From: Apostichopus japonicus
Taxonomy: Eukaryota > Echinodermata > Holothuroidea > Aspidochirotida > Stichopodidae
Length of the DNA stretch: 64,000 nt
NCBI RefSeq assembly: GCF_037975245.1
Contig: NC_092579.1
Span: forward strand, 30,764,666 to 30,828,665
Direction of reading: 5' to 3'
Shown: positions 53,301 through 56,300 of the stretch, in pieces
Layout of the letters: the number at the start of each line of letters is the position of its first letter
How positions within the stretch are numbered: the first letter of the stretch is position 1
Notes under the pieces: generated by a model
Databases searched by the model: none
Seen by the model: the letters and a program-made list of their open reading frames with translations, nothing else
What the model was told of the DNA's origin: nothing
Translations under genes and position numbers: made by a program

Positions 53301-56300
53301 GAGATGGAGATAATCATAATAACATCAGATTGAACTAACCCTTACCTTATCAATTGACAGGCTCCTTATATGCAACTCTTATTAGACAAATTTCATGCCC
53401 TCTTCTTATACAGTACCATGTTGTGTGTACAACTGTCATCTTTAACCTTACATAATCATTAAAATGAGCCTTACCGGTGAGCTAGAGATGGTTAAATGAG
53501 CCTTACCGGTGAGCTAGAGATGGTTAAATGAGCCTTACCGGTGAGCTAGAGATGGTTAAATGAGCCTTACCGGTGAGCTAGAGATGGTTAAATGAGCCTT
53601 ACCGGTGAGCTAGACATGGTTAAATGAGCCTTACCGGTGAGCTAGAGATGGTTAAATGAGCCTAACCGGTGAGCTAGAGATGGTTAAATGAGCCTAACCG
53701 GTGAGCTAGACATGGTTAAATGAGCCTTACCGGTGAGCTAGAGATGGTTAGATGAGCCTAACCGGTGAGCTAGAGATGGTTAAATGAGCCTTACCGGTGA
53801 GCTAGACATGGTTAAATGAGCCTAACCGGTGAGCTAGAGATGGTTAAATGAGCCTTACCGGTGAGCTAGAGATGGTTAAATGAGCCTTACCGGTGAGCTA
53901 GAGATGGTTAAATGAGCCTTACCGGTGAGCTAGAGATGGTTAAATGAGCCTTACCGGTGAGCTAGAGATGGTTAAATGAGCCTAACCGGTGAGCTAGAGA
54001 TGGTTAAATGAGCCTTACCGGTGAGCTAGAGATGGTTAAATGAGCCTTACCGGTGAGCTAGAGATGGTTAAATGAGCCTTACCGGTGAGCTAGAGATGGT
54101 TAAATGAGCCTTACAGGTGAGCTAGAGATGGTTAAATGAGCCTTACCGGTGAGCTAGAGATGGTTAAATGAGCCTTACCGGTGAGCTAGAGATGGTTAAA
54201 TGAGCCTAACCGGTGAGCTAGAGATGGTTAAATGAGCCTAACCGGTGAGCTAGAGATGGTTAAATGAGCCGTACCGGTGAGCTAGAGATGGTTAAATGAG
54301 CCTTACCGGTGAGCTAGAGATGGTTAAATGAGCCTAACCGGTGAGCTAGAGATGGTTAAATGAGCCTAACCGGTGAGCTAGAGATGGTTAAATGAGCCTA
54401 ACCGGTGAGCTAGAGATGGTTAAATGAGCCTTACCGGTGAGCTAGACATGGTTAAATGAGCCTTACCGGTGAGCTAGAGATGGTTAAATGAGCCTTACCG
54501 GTGAGATAGATGGTTAAATGAGCCTAACCGGTGAGCTAGACATGGTTAAATGAGCCTTACCGGTGAGCTAGAGATGGTTAAATGAGCCTTACCGGTGAGC
54601 TAGAGATGGTTAAATGAGCCTAACCGGTGAGCTAGAGATGGTTAAATGAGCCTAACCGGTGAGCTAGACATGGTTAAATGAGCCTTACCGGTGAGATAGA
54701 GATGGTTAAATGAGCCTTACCGATGAGCTAGAGATGGTTAAATGAGCCTTACCGGTGAGCTAGAGATGGTTACATGAGCCTTACCGGTGAGCTAGAGATG
54801 GTCTCCCACGACGCCCTTTTGAAATGTGGCAACTTGGGTTTCATTTCCTGTAATGTGACCTCATAGTCCCCATCTGTTAGTTGACATCTATTCTGTTTAT
54901 CGATGAGCACTAATTCAGTGAAATAGGTGGAATATTCTCTAATGGAATGTTCTCTCTCAGAGGGAGTCGGAGACCCCTTTTCTGGAGTTGTATTTGATAA
55001 CCGTCTTCTCTTCGGTGATGGAGAGACAGCTGAGAAGGATAAAACAGGGTGGTAAGTCCCTCTTTTATTACTACGATGTGGCAGAAAATTGGTGAAATTA
55101 TCACACCGAAATTCCGTAATATGTCACCACCATGGCATTTTCTTGATTTTTGATTTCTCAGCAGTTAAACGCCCTTACTAACTTTCTGTCACAGCAATGC
55201 AACTGACATTTTAAAATATGCTAATTTCATGGTGTTCCAAGCATACCATAAAGTTGGTAATTTTTAAAAGAGGTCTAACTACTATATACTCCAACATTTG
55301 GTGATCTGATATGGAACGACCCAAGTTTAAAATGTTCTGCCGTTCTGTTTTAATGGGGAGCACATTCTTCTTTAGGGTATTATTATGTGGAACTAGCTTA
55401 GAAACAAGTGCAATCACTTTAGCAGTTTTTGTACACAGAAACCATAGTACTACATTAAGAGCCTGCAAACTTTTACCACTAAAATATACCCTGGATCTTA
55501 CAGGGAAAGCCTAACAGAAGGGTTATATTGGTTGAGAAGCAAAGGAAGCCGTGGCAGAAAACAACTTACTTGTCGATTTGATTTCACCATTGCACACTGG
55601 GGAACCGTTGGTAACGTTACTGTTGGACTTGACAGGACATTGCACCCTGAATAGGAGCAGGAATGTCTTAATTCGATGACCGTTATTTAATCCTAGCGAG
55701 GCACTTGAAAATGTGACTGATTGGCAAGGATTAACTGTATCTAGCTCTGGGTCATGATGGTTCAACACTGGTACTTCCACATTGGCTAAGTGTATACTAT
55801 TGGTAGGAGAACAAATGTTCTGCACAGGAGAAAAAAAGACAAACATTAAAAGTATTTTCTGAGGTGAAGTGATGTAAGGTAAGGTGTTATCCTGGAGTGA
55901 TGTAAGGTAAGGTGTTATCCTGGAGTGATGTAAGGTAAGGTGTTATCCTGGAGTGAATGAAGGTAAGGTTTTATCCTGAAGTGAATGAAGGTAAGGTGTT
56001 ATCCTGGAGTAATTGAAGGTAAGGTGTTATCCTGAAGTGATGAAAGGTGTTACCCTGAAGTGATGTACGGTAAGGTGTTATCCTGAGGTGATGGAAGATA
56101 AGGTGTTATAATGAAGTGATGTAAGATAAGGTTTTATCCTGAAGTGATGTGAGGTAAGGTGTTATCCTGAAGTGATGTAAGGTAAGGTTTTATCCTGAAG
56201 TGATGTAAGGTAAGGTGTTATCCTGAAGAGATGTAAGGTAAGGTGTTATCCTGGAGTGATGTAAGATAAGGTTTTATCCTGAAGTGATGTGAGGTAAGGT

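Follow-up and report, generated by a model that had tools for sequence, protein, structure and literature searches.

A 5' splice site of SUZ12 repeated in a 42-unit minisatellite of Apostichopus japonicus

The SUZ12 junction and its minisatellite

The window analysed here, a stretch of 64,000 nucleotides from the Apostichopus japonicus assembly GCF_037975245.1 (contig NC_092579.1, positions 30,764,666 to 30,828,665), carries a SUZ12 gene on its minus strand in which one 5' splice site (donor) stands at the edge of a long tandem array. Plain coordinates below refer to the window. A 105-aa translation of two adjacent exons, joined by us as a single query, matched SUZ12 chains (E 3e-9) with no gap at the junction, and VEFS-box family matches were confined to this gene, with three exon matches at C19:30812158-30814155. 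The coding exon at the array edge spans 245 nt (54785..55029, minus strand) and is delimited by that match, by its reading frame and by an acceptor CAG ending at 55030. Its real, exon-proximal 5' splice site is the GT of CCG/GTAAGG (the slash marks the junction) at 54783..54784 on the same strand, placed by phase, reading frame and homology. The next SUZ12 exon lies in an open frame at 52956..53219 (minus strand) behind the acceptor TGTAG/GTGAAG, located by protein alignment across the junction together with the sequence; the 5' side of this exon is placed, and the coordinates are those of the open frame rather than of the exon's own 3' end. Of all donors in the array, only the proximal one connects in phase 0 to the exon at 53219 with no intervening stop.

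The array occupies 53462..54802 (minus strand) and is a minisatellite of 42 units of 32 bp, each made of 18 nt of exon end and 14 nt of intron start. Tandem Repeats Finder (TRF) reported a period of 32, 42.0 copies and a 96% match, which rules out a chance origin, and in our unit table 40 units measure 32 nt, a single unit 30 nt and the final one, as cut by the script, 34 nt. Unit 1 (54802-54771) consists of the coding nucleotides ACC ATC TCT AGC TCA CCG (T-I-S-S-S-P) followed by 14 intron nt. A sequence-only reading of this locus had proposed about 41 tandem copies of a real SUZ12 donor, a unit of 18 exon and 14 intron bases, and a true junction at the array edge. The composition of unit 1 agrees with this, and the donors number one real and 41 decoys (53462..54770), so that the tandem array includes the real exon–intron junction. 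The conserved WETI motif of SUZ12 chains extends into the unit, whose exon part begins with the T-I codons of the motif; we therefore read the array as derived from the SUZ12 exon edge, rather than the edge as derived from the array.

A CTAG acceptor-like site lies 7 nt ahead of the donor in 40 of the 42 units. The earlier proposal that every unit carries such a site (CTCTAG) therefore stands for these 40 and fails for units 4 and 10, where it is missing. Scored with a crude matrix against the 201 called acceptors, the site falls near the 2.5th percentile, a value that bears on whether the units could supply both donor and acceptor for intron gain. On this weak acceptor score, microexons and recursive splicing via the CTAG sites were set aside.

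Donor sequences and the outcome of decoy use

The donor GT is preserved in all 42 units. Over nine nucleotides the donors read CCGGTAAGG in 26 units, CCGGTTAGG in 13, and TCGGTAAGG, CCGGTACGG and CCTGTAAGG in one each, with 25 decoys identical to the real donor at all nine positions. The U1 small nuclear RNA (snRNA) 5' end of this genome, ATACTTACCTG, was checked in two of its own U1 genes (L103, L104) and pairs with the unit donors. U1 snRNA gave 42 scored matches at G000:C20:29019462-29087219, nearly all in one cluster and many about 856 bp apart. By U1 duplex energy, 15 decoys are weakened: 13 with GTTAGG, one with GTACGG and one with CCT/GTAAGG. The suggestion that about a third of units carry GTTAGG was borne out (13/42, 31%), as was its description as a weaker donor, on both scorings: its duplex energy is -4.8 compared with -8.7 for GTAAGG, and it ranks below all 101 genome donors in a set that was picked by a generic score >2.5 and is hence biased to strong sites.

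Readthrough past the real donor adds V-R-L-M-stop to the exon for every decoy. An in-frame stop after decoy use had been predicted in two versions, ATG TAA or ATT TAA; the stop was found, and since reading always enters unit 1 before any other, it takes the ATG TAA form in every case and the ATT TAA version never arises. Variation among units carries no clear excess at donor positions: of the eight distinct types of substitution, four lie in the 9-nt donor, against 2.25 expected over the 32 positions. Selection against the decoys is not supported by this count, nor by a second SUZ12 array in which all seven donors keep GTGAGT.

Splice-site repeats elsewhere in SUZ12 and in the genome

The second donor-spanning array lies at 50022..50212 (minus strand; TRF and sequence) and contains seven TAG/GTGAGT donors, the first of which is the real one (GT at 50202-50201). 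Here the exon end TTGTGGCTAG/GTGAGT is repeated with changes, and TGA is the first codon lying fully beyond the junction. Further minisatellites in SUZ12 introns, at 55865-57900, 48478-49004, 47678-48302 and 49118-49252, end near exon junctions and hold no exon sequence. Another, at 50471-50951, reverses its unit orientation midway, creating inverted repeats of 40-91 nt.

Recurrence of such repeats was surveyed in 232 conserved exons of five protein families, drawn from the 321 matches listed, for which 201 donors and 201 acceptors were called by score rather than from transcripts. A junction was counted when its surrounding 24 nt recurred, with an identity of at least 19/24, no more than 450 nt away in the direction of the intron. 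Three of 201 donors lie in such repeats, with nine further copies in a CCT/TCP1-family gene (L085), two in a myosin gene (L029) and one in another myosin match (L025). Acceptors do so in four of 201 cases, with two further copies in a myosin gene (L009) and one each in kinesin (L053), AAA (L106) and DEAD (L124) matches. Scoring recurrence on the 15 exon bases alone gave 4/201 for donors and 3/201 for acceptors.

Positions away from the junction were compared at a reach of 330 nt. On the donor side the junction recurs in 3/201 cases, and intron positions in 8/201 at +30, 12/197 at +60, 11/136 at +120 and 3/98 at +200. The donor junction is thus rarer in repeats than the +60 intron position (Fisher p = 0.018, for an offset chosen post hoc). 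On the acceptor side the junction (4/201) recurs about as often as the adjoining intron (4/199, 5/194, 6/143 and 3/98 at offsets outward), and exon-interior positions recur in 1-3/201 cases on the donor side and 0-1/201 on the acceptor side. Because intron positions lie in repeats as often as junctions or more so, there is no sign of a process aimed at splice sites, and that candidate was set aside as unsupported. Donors and acceptors differ in copy number only (9, 2 and 1 further copies versus 2, 1, 1 and 1); SUZ12, the gene from which the survey started, has donor arrays with 41 and 6 further copies. This asymmetry is weak, because repeats with at least two further copies are also rarer in introns near acceptors (1/194 at -60) than near donors (9/197 at +60). 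In a genome this rich in minisatellites, arrays that span junctions appear to be a minority by-product.

The CCT/TCP1-family case (G000:C21:16414780-16418463, plus strand, donor at about 3235) has a 46-bp repeat unit composed of 30 nt of exon end (GNSKIGFDIE, within the family match), GTATGT and TTTCAG. Its units look like small exons in tandem, carrying donor sites and acceptor-like ones, and the nine further copies lie within 450 nt. Two of the acceptor-spanning cases are tandem duplications of intron end plus exon start: a unit of about 125 bp in three copies in the myosin gene L009, and 168 bp in two copies in the kinesin gene.

Tolerated by-product or regulator

Given the anatomy of the array, its reading frame, its exon-edge origin and the recurrence of such arrays in this genome, all of which are established, we consider it likely that the array is a tolerated by-product of minisatellite expansion rather than a regulator, with the exon-proximal donor used and the decoys mostly silent. 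Tolerance, which the sequence-only reading had named as its alternative to dosage control, is favoured because a second array occurs in SUZ12 itself, because a comparable one occurs in the CCT/TCP1-family gene, and because junction repeats are no commoner than intron ones. A short segment across the real 5' splice site would have been duplicated in tandem and then expanded in minisatellite fashion to 42 copies. Private variants in units 1, 3 and 4 fit a less homogenised edge, yet units 17, 22 and 33 have them too. All added copies lie downstream of the real donor, in the intron, and would be spliced out whenever that donor is used, leaving the coding product unaltered. The proximal donor is presumably used, being the first transcribed and the sole donor in the array that yields SUZ12, while the decoys would be mostly silent, with an early stop in any product that they gave. 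An equivalent duplication at an acceptor would put a usable AG upstream and is expected to be less tolerable. Fewer acceptor than donor cases were expected on these grounds and were not seen in the survey (4 versus 3 of 201); the acceptor repeats merely have smaller copy numbers.

Exon definition and the order of transcription would be the simplest answers to why the proximal site wins among equal donors. Length quartiles are 138/174/215 nt for the short surveyed exons (n=111) and 525/988/2157 for the longer gaps between neighbouring sampled exon matches (n=112); with such a layout, exon definition would be expected to favour a donor lying 245 nt from its acceptor. Several observations weigh against a tolerated array with a reliably used proximal donor. 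The weaker decoys account for only 15 of the 41, and the 25 that are identical to the proximal donor over 9 nt mean that strength cannot explain the choice. The real donor is itself mediocre: a matrix trained on the 101 genome donors places it at the 17th percentile of that set, and its U1 energy is stronger than that of 43% of them. By the crude matrix, this intron's acceptor has a lower score than any of the 201 called acceptors (a set selected for scores >0), which leaves room for inefficient splicing. In the classic experiments with duplicated donors, a downstream copy was reportedly able to win. The large predicted excess of donor over acceptor repeats also failed to appear, as noted above.

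The array could instead act as a rheostat, as the sequence-only reading had also suggested: splicing from a decoy would add V-R-L-M-stop to a variable share of transcripts, these would be destroyed by nonsense-mediated decay, and array length would thereby set the level of SUZ12. The identity of 26 of 42 donors over 9 nt, the early stop that follows any decoy and the presence of the VEFS-box family in one gene only are consistent with this, and human variable number tandem repeats (VNTRs) that alter splicing are known in ABCA7 and TERT, according to the excerpted accounts of those loci. However, SUZ12 is not singled out, as the CCT/TCP1-family gene has a like build, and the substitutions lack the clear excess at donor positions that would mark selection; we regard such regulation as unlikely. 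Broader still, and about as unlikely, is the conjecture that donor-seeded minisatellites (SUZ12 twice and the CCT/TCP1-family gene) form a recurrent, expandable class in this genome with up to dozens of equal decoys, which would set gene output through length-dependent diversion to early-stop products or retained introns, and that duplications across acceptors remain short (4/4 cases have 1-2 further copies) because their upstream AG would be used.

We think it very unlikely that the RNA masks its own decoys, with the CCGG palindrome in CCG/GTAAGG pairing neighbouring decoys and leaving the edge donor open. Folding does predict the real donor to be more open: for the four pairing spans its predicted openness is 2.2e-3 to 4.2e-3, and the decoys have medians of 1.4e-5 to 3.3e-5. 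An array of eight consensus units gives an edge/interior ratio of 329, attained by 14 of 200 flank-shuffled arrays. However, shuffling the flanks while retaining the donor buries interior donors just as deeply (82 of 200 arrays had a value no higher than that observed), and the real donor ranks 2-5 of 42 in openness, with the far-edge unit among those that equal it. Of the seven donors in the second SUZ12 array, the real one is the least open, which argues against a general rule, and the folding predictions take no account of co-transcriptional order. Self-masking thus failed its controls, with shuffled flanks and with a reversal in the second array, and is a weak rival only. More improbable again is an assembly artefact, in which the copy number or the array itself would be wrong. 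Long arrays are difficult to assemble, but they are frequent in this window (51 TRF rows), a DNA search of the genome placed the array at a single locus (C19), and variants are distributed over the units.

Relation to known systems

By its cited title, a 1995 paper by Turri describes a minisatellite in human IFI6 that offers multiple splice donors. In the excerpted text of a later account, two downstream repeat units of the IFI6 (6-16, G1P3) minisatellite serve as splice donor sites and three mRNA species result (PMC4526556). The SUZ12 array resembles IFI6, so far as that excerpt describes it, in being a minisatellite with donor-bearing, consensus-like units in a coding gene (GT in 42/42; CCGGTAAGG in 26/42). 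It differs in that the further units of IFI6 are reportedly used and give isoforms, whereas any decoy here would lead to an early stop and the array is known from sequence alone. It is a long array of the IFI6 kind whose decoys, if used, would be poisonous, and the published precedent makes the finding less singular than it was first presented.

Intron gain in a potato RNA-dependent RNA polymerase (RdRp) gene is attributed to tandem duplication across an intron–exon boundary (PMC4974935). The duplicated segment there, as in SUZ12, spans such a boundary and bears splice signals; the cases differ in that the SUZ12 array, at a 5' splice site, numbers 42 copies and shows no sign of having created an intron. 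Excerpts on the intronic VNTRs of ABCA7 and TERT describe tandem repeats in coding genes that influence splicing, as the present intronic repeat could, whereas here the repeat is built from the junction itself. Among the matches listed from the open-licence literature, no paper treats the SUZ12 array or a genome-wide class of splice-site minisatellites.

Significance

Forty-two near-identical donors, of which one is real and the others would lead to an early stop, amount to a natural experiment on the choice between equal 5' splice sites, in which position, transcription order or exon definition is put to the test rather than strength. Near-exclusive use of the proximal site would mean that simple site-strength models fail here. 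Use of the decoys would make the length of the array a heritable dial on a Polycomb gene.
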